Of a stretch of 64,000 nucleotides of DNA, positions 46,802-52,765 are shown piece after piece (the first letter of the stretch is position 1; each line of letters opens with the position of its first letter). The stretch is from Flavobacteriales bacterium (lineage in GTDB: Bacteria > Bacteroidota > Bacteroidia > Flavobacteriales_D > Crocinitomicaceae), in contig CANGJM010000003.1 of the NCBI GenBank assembly GCA_947454525.1, positions 62,001-126,000 on the forward strand, read 5' to 3'. Position numbers and translations under genes: made by a program. The notes beneath the pieces are model-generated. The model saw only the letters and a program-made list of their open reading frames with translations, had not been told where the DNA came from and did not search any database.

Positions 46802-47647
46802 TTAAGGATTACAGGCTGGACAAAAAGTTGGTTCTTCCGTTTGTCGTCCATTTGGAAAATACACTTCCTCTTGATGCTGACAAGCAGTGCAGGTCAACAC
46901 GTGTTTTAAGACCGAAGACGTAGGCGTTTCACAAATCCAACAAGGTAGTCCGGGTAAAACAGAAGTCACTCCGTAACCAGGCATTTCACACGATGGACAA
47001 AGAACCTTTAATTGGGCCATTAATTTGAGGGTAAGTTGTTCGATCTGTTTCATTCGAAGTGGATTGTGCATGGCGCGCATGTCCGTTTCGACGAACACGT
47101 TGTCATGTCGACGCATGCACACACGGAAGGCCGTTAACAGTTCATCCCAATCGTTGATTCCCTTTTTTAGGTACAACATGGACTGTTCTTCATTTCGAAG
47201 TATGATTGCTTGATTCGGGAAGTCGATGGATTCACCAAAGGCGATGAGTTCCTCTTCGCTCCTTATTTTTTTCCCTTGAAAATTTGTTTCCGTCGTCAGG
47301 ATTCGGGCGGAGAAAGAAACGTTGTTCTTAAAGTCCATCAGTAAGATGAGCTCATCATGCGCTGCGCAAAAAGGCAAGTCTGGATGTGCACCAAAGGATC
47401 CTTCCGTCGCGATCACCAAATCACAGCCCGTCAATTCAAATCCCAAGTTACATTTCGCCTTTAAGGTTTCTAATGGATTTTGAAAACGTTCAATTTCACC
47501 AGAGAATGTTCCAAACTGATCAGTATCGAAATTTTCCGGTACTATGCACGAAACCCCAAGTGCTGCCTCAAGAACGGGTGCAATTACCCTCTCTTTTCCA
47601 TGCATATTTGCAATGACTAAAATTCGATCCTCAAAGAATGAACCCAT
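46802..47647 (-). CDS. DUF6671 protein with C-terminal zinc-ribbon cysteines
   Basis: A 281-residue cytoplasmic protein. The N-terminal ~210 residues match DUF6671 (ILVIANMHGKERVIAPVLE, ATEGSFGAHPDLPF, DELILLMDF). The C-terminus has four CxxC pairs (CPSC, CWIC, CTAC, CPAC, about 217-279), enough for two zinc ribbons. Function unknown. It sits 11 bp upstream of pyrC and 10 bp after the tolC-like gene in the same direction, so it may be read through from either operon. Confidence 0.8.
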   Translation of the reverse strand: MGSFFEDRILVIANMHGKERVIAPVLEAALGVSCIVPENFDTDQFGTFSGEIERFQNPLETLKAKCNLGFELTGCDLVIATEGSFGAHPDLPFCAAHDELILLMDFKNNVSFSARILTTETNFQGKKIRSEEELIAFGESIDFPNQAIILRNEEQSMLYLKKGINDWDELLTAFRVCMRRHDNVFVETDMRAMHNPLRMKQIEQLTLKLMAQLKVLCPSCEMPGYGVTSVLPGLPCWICETPTSSVLKHVLTCTACQHQEEVYFPNGRQTEEPTFCPACNP

Positions 47648-47657
47648 CGTTTTTTTT

Positions 47658-49058
47658 TTAAAATAAAGCGGCCAAAGAAAACTGAAGTGTTAAAAGTGCT
47701 TGTTGGTATTTACAAAGCACTTCGATGTATTTTAAGTTCGCTTGAATGTACGTGAGCTCTCGGGCATTCACGAGAAACAAAGAACTTTCTCCTTGTTCAA
47801 ACATGGTCTTCTCCGCCTCAAATAATTGCCGTGAGTCCTTCACCGTTTGACGGTAAATATCCAATTGATTCTGTGCGTTGAGCAAATCATTTTGAGCTTG
47901 TTTGATTTTCGCTTTAAGGTACATTTTGTTGTTCACGTAGGACAACTGCTCATCTTGCACCTTCAACTTAGCTAATTCCAAATCTCCGCGTTCTTTTCTG
48001 AATAACAAAGGCATTTCGAATTGGACACCGATTTTATTGTTGTTGGGACTTAAGTTGTTCAGCGGATTATAGTTGATCGGTTCATTGATGAAGTTATAAC
48101 TCAAATTTACCGTTGGCTTCACTTGTTCTCTTTTCAATTTCTGATCAATTTCCAAGGTCTTAATTTTCAAGCCATTCATCGTTAAATACGGATGATTTTC
48201 CGCAAGCGAATCGATGTCCATTTCAGACAGCAATGGAACAACACCGAATGTAACAGAATCCATGTACACTGGTAACGTTGTTTCGTCTAGTTCCAATGGC
48301 TCTTGGAGTTCTGTCCATAAATATGTCGAAAGTTTCACTTTTGAGTTCAATAAATCTGTTTGATAATTGTTCAAGAGCGACTGTCGGTACTGGACCTGAA
48401 TCCGTGCTTCAACCGTGTCGATGATGGGACGATCACCTAATTCCGCCGTTAATTTCACTCCTTGCAAGCGAATCTGTGCCAACTCATACGAGTTCTGCAG
48501 GACATCTTTTGAATAGTGTGCTAAAAACCAATTCCAATAGGCATAGCCAGATTCGTAGATGAGCTCATTCAATAGGAGTCGTTGTTCCTGCAAGGTACTT
48601 TCCTGGTAAATGCGTGCCTTGAACAATTCAGCCCGACGTTGGTCAATCATCATTCCTTGTCCCAAATTCACGGAAACGCCTCCGTACCAGAGTCCACCAG
48701 CGGGCGTTTTATCCTCCGACGACAAATATGGACCACTGTTCGATTCAAAGCCAGATTTCACCTGAATTCCGTACCAAGTTGGGATCGATAATCCGACATT
48801 TACTTTTTGATAATTAGTTACACCATCGTAGTTTTTACGGTCAAATTGAGAAAACATCTTTGGATCAAATCCACCTTTCGCTTTCATTAATTGACTCTCC
48901 CCCATTTGCGGTTTGATTCCAGCCTGCTTCACCAATGGATGATTTAACAAGATGAGTTCGTAATACGCTTTTTCGCTGAGTACCGCTTGCGACCAGCTAA
49001 AAGAGAGCGAGGAACAGAGCGAGAAACAGATTGAAATTACTAGAAGGAACTGTTTCAT
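47658..49058 (-). CDS. TolC-family outer-membrane efflux protein
   Basis: A 466-residue TolC-family channel with signal peptide (MKQFLLVISICFSLCSSLSFS). It has the long helical repeats of the family (for example YNNKMYLKAKIKQAQNDLLNAQNQLDIYRQ) and strand regions. It forms the trans-periplasmic channel of a tripartite exporter. Its start overlaps the HlyD gene by 4 bp in the TetR-ABC-HlyD-TolC operon. Confidence 0.9.
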   Translation of the reverse strand: MKQFLLVISICFSLCSSLSFSWSQAVLSEKAYYELILLNHPLVKQAGIKPQMGESQLMKAKGGFDPKMFSQFDRKNYDGVTNYQKVNVGLSIPTWYGIQVKSGFESNSGPYLSSEDKTPAGGLWYGGVSVNLGQGMMIDQRRAELFKARIYQESTLQEQRLLLNELIYESGYAYWNWFLAHYSKDVLQNSYELAQIRLQGVKLTAELGDRPIIDTVEARIQVQYRQSLLNNYQTDLLNSKVKLSTYLWTELQEPLELDETTLPVYMDSVTFGVVPLLSEMDIDSLAENHPYLTMNGLKIKTLEIDQKLKREQVKPTVNLSYNFINEPINYNPLNNLSPNNNKIGVQFEMPLLFRKERGDLELAKLKVQDEQLSYVNNKMYLKAKIKQAQNDLLNAQNQLDIYRQTVKDSRQLFEAEKTMFEQGESSLFLVNARELTYIQANLKYIEVLCKYQQALLTLQFSLAALF

Positions 49059-50398
49059 TTCTTAGGTTTTTGAGTTTTTTTCGCTTCATAAAAATTGGGT
49101 GGGAAGCCATTAATTTTTCGCCACAATTCATAGCCAATGAGCACATCATTTAAGAGAATCATTGATTTCGCTCCACCTCCAACTCTCAAGGCAGTCGGCC
49201 ATTCTTTGTCGTTTTTATCTGGCGCAATGAGTACGCGGAAATTCCCTTCCTCATTCGCAAATTGATCAATGGCAAAAATCGACCCGCCAAAGGTTCCAAA
49301 ACTAGTTGTCGGCCATCCAGAAAAGACAATTGCCGGCCAACCATCAAATTGCACGCGTACTTTTTGTCCTTTCTGAAGCAATGGTAAATCCATTGGACGA
49401 ACGTACATTTCAATCGCTAAATCGTAGTTTCGAGGCATAATGGTGGCAATCGACTCCCCTTGTTTAATCGTCTCACCGATTCCACTTGACAGTACTTTCG
49501 TGACGATACCGTCCTGTGGAGCTAACACATAGTACATTCCATTTCGAATGGAATAATTTGCCGCTTGATTTTGCAATTTAATCACATCCACTTCGGTGTC
49601 GTACAGCGTAGAAAGTGTCGAAAACTTATCGGACTCCGCCTTTGCGATTTCATCCTTGAACTTCGCCTCGATAGACTGGTACTCTACTCTTGCATCGATG
49701 ATATCGTTCGCACTTTGCAAGTACTTCTGTTGTGCAGCAATTTGAGATGCTTGTGCACGTTGGTACGCCAATTTGCGCGATTCTACTTCCGTCAATGATT
49801 TCAAGTTGTCCTTGTATAATTTCTCAAAACGCTCATACTGTTGTTCGGCAATACGTGTATTGATTTGCGTTGTATGAAATTCAATGCTATCCGTTTTCAA
49901 CTTCAAATAGGATTGATTCAACTTGATTTTTGCTTGTTGCAATTTAAACTTCCCTGTTTCAATCAAGGCGTCAATTCGGTTATCTAAGGATGAAATTTTA
50001 TCTCCATACGAAACCACAGACAACTCTTTGTTTTTTAATTGCTTATTCGTTCGTCCCACTAAATCTGGATCCAAGTAGCTTTCCTTAATTTCGGAGAGAA
50101 ACAAGATGGTATCGCCTTTTTTAACTTGATCACCGTCCTTGACGAACCATTTTTCAATGCGTCCAGCAATAATCGATTGAATCATTTGCGGACGTTGCTC
50201 AGGACGCAAGGTGACAATCTTGCCATCTGCACGAATGTTTTGAGTCCAAGGTAGTAACATCAGCAACAAGAGCATGCCCATCGCATAGAGGATGGAACGT
50301 TTCAAACGTTTCGATGAATGCTTACCTTCCACTCGATTCATCGCCTTCAATTCAGTTGCATTCAACTGACTTTTGTTTTGTGGAGAGAGATTTAACAT
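49055..50398 (-). CDS. HlyD-family periplasmic adaptor
   Basis: A 447-residue membrane-fusion protein. A single N-terminal helix (about 35-51) is followed by the split lipoyl domain (IAGRIEKWFVKDGDQVKKGDTI, about 75-96; and YVLAPQDGIVTKVLSSGIGETIKQGE), a long coiled-coil hairpin and a beta-barrel. It bridges the ABC protein in the inner membrane to the TolC-like channel. It overlaps the ABC gene by 7 bp and the tolC gene by 4 bp. Confidence 0.92.
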   Translation of the reverse strand: MLNLSPQNKSQLNATELKAMNRVEGKHSSKRLKRSILYAMGMLLLLMLLPWTQNIRADGKIVTLRPEQRPQMIQSIIAGRIEKWFVKDGDQVKKGDTILFLSEIKESYLDPDLVGRTNKQLKNKELSVVSYGDKISSLDNRIDALIETGKFKLQQAKIKLNQSYLKLKTDSIEFHTTQINTRIAEQQYERFEKLYKDNLKSLTEVESRKLAYQRAQASQIAAQQKYLQSANDIIDARVEYQSIEAKFKDEIAKAESDKFSTLSTLYDTEVDVIKLQNQAANYSIRNGMYYVLAPQDGIVTKVLSSGIGETIKQGESIATIMPRNYDLAIEMYVRPMDLPLLQKGQKVRVQFDGWPAIVFSGWPTTSFGTFGGSIFAIDQFANEEGNFRVLIAPDKNDKEWPTALRVGGGAKSMILLNDVLIGYELWRKINGFPPNFYEAKKTQKPKK

Positions 50399-52092
50399 GA
50401 TTGAGTCAAATTAAAGGATTCATAACTACCATCAAAGCGAATTTTGCCTTGGTGAATTTCTATTATTCGAGCGCAATAACTTAGGACAGCAGGATCCGCT
50501 GTCGCAACCATCACCGTCTTTTGCTCATCCTTGAACATATAGGATAAAAGCGCCTCTTTCTGAATGGAAGTGAGTCCAGCAGTTGGATCTTCGAAAATTA
50601 AGAGGTTTGGCTCTCCAATCATCGCGCGTGCCACCAACAAACTACGTTCCACATCCACTGGAATCAAGTGAGATTCAGGATTTAGGATTCCTTGGTATTT
50701 ATCCGGCATCGAATGAACGAAGGATGTTAAATTCAAGGCGCTGATTTCGGTTTCAATCTCCGACAGGGAAATTTCATCTCGACCAAAACGAATGTTGTCC
50801 GCAACACTTCCAAACACCAATTGATCTCGGTATAGAACCGAACCAATTTTCTCCCTCAAGGATTGCTTATTCAAGTTTTCTAGCGGAATTCCGTTGATGG
50901 AAATCGTTCCTTTGGAAGGGTCCAATAATCCAACAAGGGAACAGAAAAGCAAGCTGCTCGACAAAGAAGAATCGCTGACGATGGCGATTTTCTCCTGTGG
51001 ATGAATCTGCAACTGAATCTCCGCTAGGGGACTCAACTCGTAAGACTCCAGGTGACAAGAAACCTGATCAAACTGAATGGAAATACCTTTGGTCACATCC
51101 ACAGGTTCTTGGTTTTGATTCGAAAGTTCAATTGGTAAATCCGTTACTTGTCCAATTTTTTCAATGGCCGTGAATACATCATATACGACTTCGATACTCA
51201 GAATCAATTTTTCAACGGCACTCAAGATGAGTAAAATAAGGATTTCTGATGCGACAAATTGCCCGATGTTCATTTGTTGATTGATCACCAAAAGTCCACC
51301 AATAATCAAGAACGAAAGCGCAATCAGCACCTTGAAAATGATCAAATAGGCATATTGCTTTACCAAAACTTTAAAATGCTGATCGCGTGCTGACAAATAT
51401 CCTTGCACGTAGTCATCTGTGCGGTAAATGTGAAATTTACGGTTTCCAGAAAGGTTAAAACTGAAACGTGCTTGAGCAATTTCCTTTAACCAATGAGCAA
51501 TTTTGTACTTGTAACTTGACTCTTCCAAACTTGCCAACATTCCTTGTCGCGCGGTTAAGCGAACGATGAGTCCAAGCGTAAAAACAAGAAATACACCAAG
51601 AAAAATGAAAAAACTGTGGTAAAAGGACAACAAAACAAGGCAAAATACGAGCTGAAGTATTGCAGCAGTAAAGTCAATTAACAACTTCGATAATCCTTTT
51701 TGAATGGTCAATGTATCAAAAAAGCGATGCGTTAAATCCGTACCATATTTCTTCATCAACGCTGTTAAGCGAATCAATGGAATTCGTTCGGCAAACTCAA
51801 AAGCGGAACGTGTAAAAATTCGCTGCTGCAAATTCTCGGTAATCCGCAATTGAAAAATGTTCAATAGTCCAGAGAATCCAATGGACAAAACCACTAAAAT
51901 CACCAGAACAAACCACGAGGTACTCATTTGTCCCAATTCAATGAAATTGATGATCATCTGAATTCCTAAAGGCAATCCCAAGGACAAGATTCCGCTAAAA
52001 ATGGAGAATAGATAAATGTTTCGGATTTCTTTTTGGTCCGGACGAAGCATCGACCAAAACCGTGAAACAATAGAAGGAATGTGATTATCCAT
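50392..52092 (-). CDS. ABC exporter-like protein with degenerate ATPase domain
   Basis: A 566-residue protein with the exporter layout: about six transmembrane helices (1-315) and a nucleotide-binding domain (335-560) recognisable by TIXING-like strands, SLREKIGSVL and VFGSVADNIRFGRDE. Every catalytic motif is altered: Walker A reads VSDSSLSSSLL (372-382, no Gly-Lys), the Q-loop position is YRDQ with no Gln before the acidic residue, LSGGQ is replaced by LIPVDVERS (476-484), Walker B/catalytic Glu is LIFEDP (498-503) and the H-loop reads VATADP (529-534). ATP hydrolysis is unlikely. It has no N-terminal C39 peptidase. Confidence 0.88.
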   Translation of the reverse strand: MDNHIPSIVSRFWSMLRPDQKEIRNIYLFSIFSGILSLGLPLGIQMIINFIELGQMSTSWFVLVILVVLSIGFSGLLNIFQLRITENLQQRIFTRSAFEFAERIPLIRLTALMKKYGTDLTHRFFDTLTIQKGLSKLLIDFTAAILQLVFCLVLLSFYHSFFIFLGVFLVFTLGLIVRLTARQGMLASLEESSYKYKIAHWLKEIAQARFSFNLSGNRKFHIYRTDDYVQGYLSARDQHFKVLVKQYAYLIIFKVLIALSFLIIGGLLVINQQMNIGQFVASEILILLILSAVEKLILSIEVVYDVFTAIEKIGQVTDLPIELSNQNQEPVDVTKGISIQFDQVSCHLESYELSPLAEIQLQIHPQEKIAIVSDSSLSSSLLFCSLVGLLDPSKGTISINGIPLENLNKQSLREKIGSVLYRDQLVFGSVADNIRFGRDEISLSEIETEISALNLTSFVHSMPDKYQGILNPESHLIPVDVERSLLVARAMIGEPNLLIFEDPTAGLTSIQKEALLSYMFKDEQKTVMVATADPAVLSYCARIIEIHQGKIRFDGSYESFNLTQSC

Positions 52093-52765
52093 GTTTGATT
52101 ACTTTTAATAAGGTTTCGGTAAAGAATGACTCTATAAGGTCATCGTGTTCATTCATATTTGTCAAACGAGGCAAATGAGCGGCAAAAAAACGCTGTTGAT
52201 TACTTCCCTCAATCATGTTGGAGATGAGCATGTTTGGAAATTCATACGTTGGATTGATTTCCAGAATAATGGATGATACAAATTCCACCACCTTTTTGTA
52301 TTCAGCGAATGCCCCATTTTTATTCTCGTCATCGACGTTCTTTGTCAAAAGTACCTTAGAGGACTCATTGATGACAATTTGCTTTAGTTCCAATTCGTTA
52401 TCGAGTACGAGTTCCTGCGTCGGATTTGGAATGGCCGTCAAGATATGAATGCAATTTTTCAACCGAACTTCCGCATCTGGAATGTTTTGAGTTCCCATGT
52501 GAATGCGAAACCACATGCAGGACCAATACCAATTAATCAAATATAGAAGGATTTTCTGCTTGCTTTCAAAATATCGGTAAATGGAAGCTTCCGTAGTATC
52601 AATGTCAATCGCAAGTTTCTTGAAGGTGAATTTCTCAAATCCTAGAGAGGAAATCAACGAAATACTTCCACTGAGGATTTTCTGTCCTAAATCCGAAGAA
52701 GTTGGATCTTTCAGGTACAAATGCTCATTCATGGGAATGGACATTTTTGAAAACAGTTGATTCAT
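52085..52765 (-). CDS. TetR/AcrR family transcriptional regulator
   Basis: A 226-residue regulator. The helix-turn-helix is in FTFKKLAIDIDTTEASIYRYFESKQKILLYLI (about 46-77, not written beyond motif here for identity), followed by a ligand-binding domain with no recognised specificity. It heads the minus-strand exporter operon and overlaps the ABC gene by 8 bp. The palindromic operator candidate over its promoter implies autoregulation of the whole operon. Confidence 0.85.
   Translation of the reverse strand: MNQLFSKMSIPMNEHLYLKDPTSSDLGQKILSGSISLISSLGFEKFTFKKLAIDIDTTEASIYRYFESKQKILLYLINWYWSCMWFRIHMGTQNIPDAEVRLKNCIHILTAIPNPTQELVLDNELELKQIVINESSKVLLTKNVDDENKNGAFAEYKKVVEFVSSIILEINPTYEFPNMLISNMIEGSNQQRFFAAHLPRLTNMNEHDDLIESFFTETLLKVIKHG

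Follow-up and report, generated by a model that had tools for sequence, protein, structure and literature searches.

HlyB, PCAT and LssB, which are type I secretion exporters, share with the ABC protein described here a full exporter fold (PCAT1 comes first, and HlyB near the top, among the Foldseek matches listed) as well as HlyD and TolC partners; a C39-like domain is present in relatives such as that of locus L069. The protein is encoded in a 64,000-nt stretch of DNA, the window, and differs from these exporters in having no C39-like domain and in having lost the catalytic motifs of its nucleotide-binding domain (NBD), which in some relatives is deleted altogether. Its best NCBIfam match is TIGR03375 (LssB), at 136.8 bits and thus well under the curated cut-off of 693.1. 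In EmrAB-TolC, a PMF-driven MFS inner-membrane pump works with an adaptor and TolC; the window operon has the same two partners, but EmrB is an MFS protein, whereas here the transmembrane domain (TMD) is that of an ABC exporter.

TmrAB, TM287/288, BmrCD and TAP (one degenerate site) likewise have the exporter fold and an NBD that carries catalytic substitutions. These keep one competent site, whereas no competent partner lies beside the window gene. SbmA/BacA (SLiPT) resembles our protein in possessing an ABC-exporter-type TMD without a working NBD. The excerpt of PMC13316013 consulted describes SbmA as a proton-driven importer that is related to ABC TMDs but has no NBD; its coupling helices are gone and TM0 helices have been added. 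SbmA/BacA is proposed there to have descended from NBD-bearing ABC transporters through NBD loss. The window protein, by contrast, keeps the NBD fold, and its family is encoded next to HlyD and TolC. The fold matches listed do not include SbmA, and the SbmA-family signature is absent: among ABC-type Pfam models, four NBD-less relatives match PF00664 only and the window protein matches PF00005 and PF00664. LmrA-MD is an ABC exporter TMD that works without its NBD by ion coupling and needs E314 in TM6 for pH dependence (PMC2704374, in excerpt), but it is an artificial truncation, whereas the loss seen here is natural. No paper on this exporter family was found in the literature searched (open-licence papers only), and the graded series of NBD decay, together with complete NBD deletion, is new here.

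The operon and its annotation

The earlier note on this DNA described an intact frame overlapping its TetR and HlyD neighbours, which is confirmed: the frame has 566 codons and shares 8 nt with the TetR gene and 7 nt with the HlyD gene (Table 1). Pfam matches of the protein were restricted to PF00005 and PF00664 at E values up to 1, with 31.8 bits for ABC_tran (cut-off 25) and 15.3 for ABC_membrane (cut-off 28). The AF2 model (mean pLDDT 83.3) is that of a complete ABC exporter, including a six-helix TMD and the NBD fold, and together with the structure search it identifies the type IV ABC exporter fold. In 49 of the 50 fold matches listed, Z was 27.8-29.4 over 507-561 residues, the remaining one being an NBD alone. 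Neither the ORFs nor the Pfam matches revealed an ABC partner next to the window gene; five canonical full ABC exporters are encoded elsewhere in the same genome.

Table 1. Features of the window operon and of its ABC exporter gene
Feature	Position	Strand	Evidence
Pseudo-ATPase ABC exporter gene (TMD + degenerate NBD), 566 aa	50392..52092	-	ORF; Pfam ABC_tran 31.8 bits; AF2 model
Transmembrane domain, residues 1-325, strongly conserved part	51118..52092	-	Alignments, identity, omega, residue counts
Degenerate nucleotide-binding domain with its modelled fold preserved and its catalytic motifs gone, residues 333-566; selection relaxed but purifying	50395..51096	-	
Ex-Walker A SDSSLSSS, residues 373-380	50953..50976	-	Alignment
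Ex-Q-loop region IGSVLYRDQLV, residues 416-426, Tyr at Gln position	50815..50847	-	Alignment
Ex-LSGGQ signature IPVDV, residues 477-481	50650..50664	-	Alignment
Ex-Walker B LLIFED, residues 497-502	50587..50604	-	Alignment
Switch-His position, Ala532	50497..50499	-	Alignment
HlyD-family periplasmic adaptor	49055..50398	-	ORF; HlyD_3, Biotin_lipoyl_2 matches
TolC-family outer-membrane channel	47658..49058	-	ORF; OEP 132.8 bits
TetR-family regulator, upstream of ABC gene	52085..52765	-	ORF; Pfam

The same partners recur among relatives. Of 80 related loci, 76 have HlyD and 74 have TolC; both are present at all 55 loci whose protein has no NBD, and a TetR gene lies near 64 of the 80. As points against the reading preferred below, HlyD was not found at four of the 80, and neither HlyD nor TolC at L151, L152 and L164.

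Catalytic motifs

The exporter motif names used here follow textbook usage, in line with the excerpted PMC7756269. Aligned with the canonical exporters of its own genome, the window protein has SDSSLSSS for GxxGSGKS (no Gly and no Lys), Tyr for the Q-loop Gln, IPVDV for LSGGQ, ED for the DE of Walker B and Ala for the switch His, so that the set needed for ATP hydrolysis is absent. The five control exporters (L082-L086) all possess Walker A, the Gln and the His; Walker B is DE in four and DD in L083, and the signature reads SGGQ or SGGE in four and SVGQ in L085. The earlier claim of a kept NBD fold with all catalytic motifs lost is therefore borne out by this alignment and by the AF2 model.

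Walker A is absent in 26 of 26 typed members of the window clade, and likewise in three partial relatives (L007, L024 and L048). A recent lesion is ruled out because all 25 typed clade relatives share this loss; the degenerate state is a trait of the clade. The exact residues differ among near relatives, the switch position being Thr in L001 and Ser in L002. The switch His is kept in four of the 26 (L005, L009, L011 and L025) and the DE of Walker B in five (L012, L014, L015, L016 and L019), observations that count against ATP independence.

Decay across the family

For the tree, 226 sequences were thinned to 126 representatives at 82% identity, leaving out own duplicates (L081 and L098), TMD scores below 200 and spans below 300 model positions; loci L245 and above stand outside it. 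Walker A, DE and His occur together in 13 of 19 typed deep members, which lie outside the derived clade and stay there when the tree is rooted on 19 canonical exporters. Within the derived clade, none of the 152 NBD-bearing proteins typed combines DE with His, His is present in seven and SGG in the signature in none.

The Walker A Lys or Arg is kept in 142 of 171 NBD-bearing members, which may bind ATP, a further point against ATP independence; GKD and GKE (L234 and L238) count as kept in this score. The Lys has been lost at least four times in the family, once in the window's clade, and that loss is nested within a wider clade of degenerate catalytic motifs. On the branch adjoining the NBD-less clade, the Ser/Thr of Walker A is often swapped (GKN, GKH, GKF, GKD and GKE).

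Deep members and those from Cytophagales are extended at the N terminus; in L069 the extension is modelled as a C39-like domain with Z up to 9.8 against HlyB and PCAT1. In the AF2 model of the window protein there is no N-terminal C39 or C39-like domain, and the first helix begins at residue 8.

Loss of the whole NBD

Short NBD-less frames were found in 106 of the 451 genomes searched, across many genera of three families; those of G534, G529, G430, G538 and G809 were excluded from the count (short contigs, contamination or partial matches). The deletion belongs to one lineage. At 55 of 55 loci read, the stop comes just past TM6, with 1-21 codons beyond the TMD match, and the HlyD ATG follows, at a median of -8 nt relative to that stop (range -14 to +98), with TolC after it. 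In the four NBD-less proteins scanned, ABC_membrane (PF00664) alone scored above its Pfam cut-off.

One might suspect an assembly or split-gene artefact, but this is unlikely because the HlyD start lies near the stop at every locus and a separate family NBD was not found. The latter search covered 10 NBD-less genomes, in which the best frame under 400 aa reached 98 bits, against 329 and 367 bits for the family NBDs of two control genomes. No other NBD frame occurs in the stretch read at 51 of the 55 loci. The remaining four have ABC ATPase frames nearby, stand-alone in L125 and L213 (about 4 kb downstream) and longer in L173 and L186. Most NBD-less genomes have a single family member; G744 and G712 also carry a full-length one. 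These ATPase frames and full-length members count against ATP independence.

Selection and conservation

Between the window protein and L001, omega is 0.016 in the TMD against 0.140 in the NBD, in agreement with the earlier note's view, drawn from the frame, that the gene is not a pseudogene. NBD omega is 0.08-0.14 in nine NBD-bearing pairs, and omega is 0.02-0.12 in the NBD-less pairs with defined dS (n=5). The window frame is thus under purifying selection by these comparisons, with the NBD relaxed relative to the TMD. The purifying selection on the NBD of NBD-bearing members is itself a point against ATP independence.

Identity within the family averages 0.597 for the TMD and 0.373 for the NBD, and the NBD exceeds the TMD in 0 of 231 pairs. 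In the canonical exporter the pattern is the reverse: 0.541 for the TMD and 0.641 for the NBD, the NBD being higher in 171 of 171 pairs. L086 served as this control because L082 has orthologues in only 3 of 21 genomes; two truncated frames (L288 and L289) and weaker second matches were left out.

Residue counts and conservation figures for the TMD and coupling helices refer to the 126 representatives. H159, K/R254, D/E283, D/E294 and K/R295 are kept in 95-99% of them, within hydrophobic stretches. Since most of these residues are also present in competent deep members, and are hence ancestral, and since in the canonical family, too, hydrophobic stretches contain three charged residues that are conserved, they mark no switch to ion coupling, and their standing as a derived ion-coupling trait is unsupported.

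Coupling helix 2 is a usual docking element for the NBD. Its conservation is 0.298 in NBD-less and 0.356 in NBD-bearing proteins, the largest fall of any segment, whereas the TMD mean is 0.590 against 0.502. The conserved S/T211 and Phe212 are lost from it in NBD-less proteins, and a basic residue is kept (Arg213 in 31 of 33). Coupling helix 1 (0.600 vs 0.409) and the cytosolic part of TM3 beside it (0.790 vs 0.668) are better conserved in NBD-less proteins. Because these two segments and Arg213 are kept, something may still dock at the coupling helices there.

Energy source

We consider it fairly probable that this is a HlyB-type exporter that has become independent of ATP hydrolysis and exports through HlyD-TolC by an ion gradient or gated diffusion; SbmA and the engineered LmrA-MD are precedents for working with no NBD. 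As far as sequences can tell, ATP independence is well supported; that protons drive export, we infer. The window exporter probably runs on another energy source, because the ATP-burning parts are all lost and many Bacteroidota relatives dropped the NBD and kept the pump.

The pseudo-ATPase idea of the earlier note gains support from a Walker A loss that is clade-wide and nested in a degenerate clade and from purifying selection. Three roles had been proposed with it. A passive or PMF-driven route to HlyD-TolC fits best and would agree with the reading above. The NBD as an essential scaffold is weakened, because one lineage discarded it yet kept the operon, and powering by another ATPase is disfavoured, because no stand-alone family NBD was found in 10 NBD-less genomes and conservation of coupling helix 2 (not of coupling helix 1) falls without the NBD.

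The ancestor would have been a HlyB/PCAT-like ABC exporter bearing a C39-like domain, and ATP hydrolysis by its NBD would have ceased in the common ancestor from which a large Bacteroidota clade descends. Later, lineage by lineage, the NBD would have been eroded further (in the window clade, Walker A too) or deleted. The product may be the inner-membrane part of a tripartite exporter comprising the ABC-type TMD, the HlyD adaptor and the TolC channel, under TetR control. Presumably turning over no ATP, a putative TMD dimer would still alternate access, feeding its substrate outward to HlyD-TolC. Export would draw on an ion gradient, protons being the likeliest ion and acting through conserved ionisable residues in TM5 and TM6, or would follow a gated downhill path, and the remnant NBD, where present, may be a structural or regulatory leftover.

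It is rather unlikely that the TMD is a substrate-gated channel through which a cytoplasmic compound runs down its own gradient via HlyD-TolC, with no energy coupling. The NBD is dispensable, as would suit such a conduit, and the frequent TetR neighbour suggests export switched on upon compound accumulation; the kept ionisable residues and the very low TMD omega, however, are more in keeping with a coupled cycle than with a simple pore.

Distinctly unlikely, in our judgement, is powering in trans, in which a stand-alone NBD or a second full ABC exporter would dock on the coupling helices, in the manner of heterodimers that have a single degenerate site. Such heterodimers are described in the excerpted PMC7756269, the window's genome has five candidate full exporters, the ATPase frames downstream of L125 and L213 could be read likewise, and coupling helix 1 with adjacent TM3 stays conserved even without an NBD. 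The losses from coupling helix 2 speak against docking; moreover, there is no ABC gene next to the window gene, and the searches found no stand-alone family NBD in the 10 genomes and no other NBD frame in the stretch read at 51 of 55 NBD-less loci. A neighbouring heterodimer partner was also considered for deep members L134 and L135, each beside a 972-aa ABC-like frame; that of L134, the one scanned, is UvrA by Pfam.

There is little likelihood that ATP binding without hydrolysis drives the switch, the NBD gating the TMD as a sensor of nucleotide, an ability that the window clade would have lost as well. Most NBD-bearing members do keep the Walker A Lys or Arg while His is scarce and SGG missing in the derived clade, and the same excerpt (PMC7756269) describes degenerate sites that bind ATP as well as the opening of ABCC7 gated by ATP. 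Repeated loss of the Lys and deletion of the NBD from an intact operon nevertheless make ATP sensing dispensable for the core function, although it may hold for the Walker-A-bearing majority.

That the operon is losing its function and the NBD becoming a pseudogene is scarcely credible: NBD selection is relaxed relative to the TMD and single damaged copies exist (L024 and G506), but the window frame and overlaps are intact, omega stays well under 1 for TMD and NBD alike and for NBD-less pairs, the NBD-less state spans many genera of three families, and frame disruptions were not seen in most close relatives.

Significance for transport and annotation

The chances seem about even that an ABC exporter became a secondary-active (ion-driven) tripartite exporter in Bacteroidota, with the competent ATPase, the dead ATPase with its P-loop, the loss of the P-loop (window) and, in another lineage, the deletion of the NBD all represented within one HlyD-TolC operon. 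If true, a primary transporter would have turned into a secondary one for a second time, SbmA being the other case, and this time in an exporter whose intermediates are still alive. The family also offers a natural setting in which to ask whether the TMD of an ABC exporter can work without its ATPase, a question approached earlier, in the excerpts consulted, through an engineered truncation (LmrA-MD) and SbmA. Since competent deep relatives, intermediates and NBD-less end points all occur in the same operon, it is possible to test directly what powers export and by which steps the conversion proceeded.

Outside the Bacteroidota, three sphingomonad plasmid records were found, two of which sit on a long branch where their placement is unsure. 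Researchers should treat the product name 'ABC transporter ATP-binding protein' with caution, as Sphingobium and Riemerella records bearing it cover proteins without catalytic motifs.

Motif Losses and Modelled Fold

The earlier note had claimed that this 566-residue ABC exporter lost its NBD motifs within an intact frame, and these losses are real. The protein carries SDSSLSSS at the Walker A position, Tyr at the Q-loop Gln, IPVDV at LSGGQ, ED at Walker B, and Ala at the switch His. As controls we took five canonical exporters encoded elsewhere in the genome (L082–L086); Walker A, Gln, and His are present in all five, the deviations being a Walker B DD in one and SVGQ in one. The gene order is TetR, ABC, HlyD, and TolC, with brief overlaps between adjacent genes. 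Downstream of TolC lies a DUF6671 gene, also found at 13 of the 80 related loci.

Coordinates of the features discussed
Feature	Sequence	Coordinates	Strand	Remark
ABC exporter gene	Window	50392–52092	minus	Intact frame, 566 codons
DUF6671 protein	Window	46802–47647		PF20376, 256 bits
N-terminal extension of a relative	L069	5512–6015
ABC gene of a single relative	L024	3940–5609		Split across two frames (sequencing error or pseudogene)
NBD-less copy	G506, C3	39892–40857		Internal TAA stop

An AlphaFold2 model built from 27 aligned sequences has a mean pLDDT of 83.3, with most NBD blocks at 83–93. VIA-align matched it to whole ABC exporters (MsbA, ABCB1, HlyB, Sav1866, and TM287/288; Z 27.8–29.4, rmsd about 3 among the best matches), and the top Foldseek match was PCAT1. 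With the motifs gone, these matches suggest a protein that has kept the exporter fold, as modelled, and lost the catalytic chemistry.

Family and Motif Census

Scanning genome contigs yielded 93 relatives; 80 were kept, with HlyD at 76 loci, TolC at 74, and TetR at 64. HlyD is missing at L031 and L072–L074, and the further TolC misses (L051 and L079) are both on short contigs. By TMD-profile search, the family is present in 98 of 395 Bacteroidota genomes.

Among 171 typed NBD-bearing sequences, 142 retain the Walker A Lys or Arg and 20 retain the switch His; SGG is missing from every signature, the nearest being STGQ in four. Walker A, DE, and His occur together in 13, all among the 19 deep members, that is, relatives outside a large derived clade; the derived members have DE in 8/152, His in 7/152, and both together in 0/152.

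Conservation and Selection

Family identity is 59.7% in the TMD and 37.3% in the NBD, with the NBD exceeding the TMD in 0/231 pairs; these figures, from the window protein plus one member from each of 21 genomes of its taxonomic family, describe the family rather than the window clade alone, because most of the 22 retain Walker A. A canonical exporter (L086), compared with its orthologues in 18 of those 21 genomes, shows 54.1% in the TMD and 64.1% in the NBD, the NBD being higher in 171/171 pairs. No other single sign points as clearly as this reversal to an NBD that no longer bears the main function. Using a simple Nei–Gojobori script, with which several other pairs were saturated, omega for the window gene was 0.016 (TMD) and 0.140 (NBD) against relative L001, 0.017 and 0.137 against L002, and 0.02–0.12 in the five NBD-less pairs with defined dS.

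Evolutionary History

Quick trees without bootstraps, in which L162 and a few others form long branches, were built from 126 TMD representatives. They contain a derived clade of 110 (SH-aLRT 100) with competent deep members outside it, a placement that holds when 19 canonical exporters serve as root. Among NBD-bearing representatives, loss of the Walker A Lys requires four changes: one each in L075, L162, and L236, and one in the window's clade, which has nine representatives and a support of 100. Absence of the NBD is a single change (clade 33/33, support 100). The branch adjoining the NBD-less clade often has Asn, His, Phe, Asp, or Glu in place of the Walker A Ser/Thr, with Lys kept (L148, L231–L235, L238, L053, L069, L076, and L079), possibly a step before NBD deletion.

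Deep and Cytophagales members (L069, L053, L072, L138, and others) carry N-terminal extensions of roughly 120–260 residues; the window protein has none. The model of the L069 extension (mean pLDDT 76.5) matches the HlyB C39-like domain and the C39 domains of PCAT1 and ComA, and its best 15 matches are all C39 or C39-like at Z 8.8–9.8, though, by the tool's own caution, a common arrangement can also produce Z near 8. Given this modelled resemblance, the family most likely descends from an HlyB/PCAT-type exporter.

Deletion of the NBD

TMD-profile searches found open frames of 334–424 aa in three families: in 24 of 66 positives among 151 genomes searched, 32 of 128 among 150, and 50 of 139 among 150, as counted from the search listings with five doubtful genomes left out. 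G506 is among the 24. We read 55 NBD-less loci from 53 genomes; every frame stops 1–21 residues past the TMD match with no NBD in frame, and HlyD and TolC come next in all 55, the HlyD ATG being offset from the stop codon by -14 to +98 nt (median -8). In a Pfam scan of four such proteins, ABC_membrane was the only match above the cut-off. The pseudo-ATPase reading is supported, and extended to clade-wide loss of the Walker A Lys and to NBD deletion with HlyD–TolC kept.

Possible Mechanisms

The best remaining reading is putative ion-driven or gated passive export. H159, K/R254, D/E283, D/E294, and K/R295 lie within hydrophobic stretches and are kept in 95–99% of the 126 representatives; most family ionisable residues are shared with competent deep members, and three charged residues are conserved within hydrophobic stretches of the canonical L086 family. 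The residues would allow ion coupling and do not prove it. LmrA without its NBD performs ion-coupled transport with a pH response dependent on a TM6 glutamate (PMC2704374), and SbmA is NBD-less and proton-driven, its proposed origin being an ABC transporter minus NBD and coupling helices (PMC13316013). Passages of reviews on type I secretion (PMC8277102) and degenerate sites (PMC7756269) mention no exporter that has lost every site. Precedents are known, and the evolutionary depth of the present case is unusual.

Powering by another ATPase, as the earlier note also proposed, is disfavoured because no stand-alone family NBD was found in 10 NBD-less genomes, where the best frame below 400 aa scored 98 bits (matches listed in score order, the remainder lower); family NBDs in two control genomes scored 329 and 367 bits. 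Another ABC ATPase frame occurs elsewhere in the stretch read at four of the 55 loci (L125, L173, L186, and L213). Conservation of coupling helix 1 and adjoining cytosolic TM3 is higher in NBD-less (L125–L130 and others) than in NBD-bearing proteins, which leaves room for a docking partner. In NBD-less proteins conservation drops most at coupling helix 2, where S/T211 and Phe212 are lost and a basic residue at 213 is kept (Arg in 31/33). Two genomes, G744 and G712, hold NBD-less copies plus a full-length member, and a mixed dimer is conceivable there. The scaffold version, as an essential role, is likewise disfavoured.

Related Proteins on Plasmid Records

A Riemerella anatipestifer member (L300) retains Walker A and is annotated as an ATP-binding protein; its plasmid label looks doubtful, since murB and other housekeeping genes are on the same record. 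Related TMD proteins of Alphaproteobacteria occur on sphingomonad plasmid records (L299, L301, and L302). The NBDs of L299 and L301 lack Walker A, Walker B, and the switch His, apparently a separate degeneration. L299 is preceded by a DUF2309 gene and followed by biotin/lipoyl and TolC genes, and L302 is a short frame (478 aa) whose end is overlapped by an annotated IS3 transposase gene.
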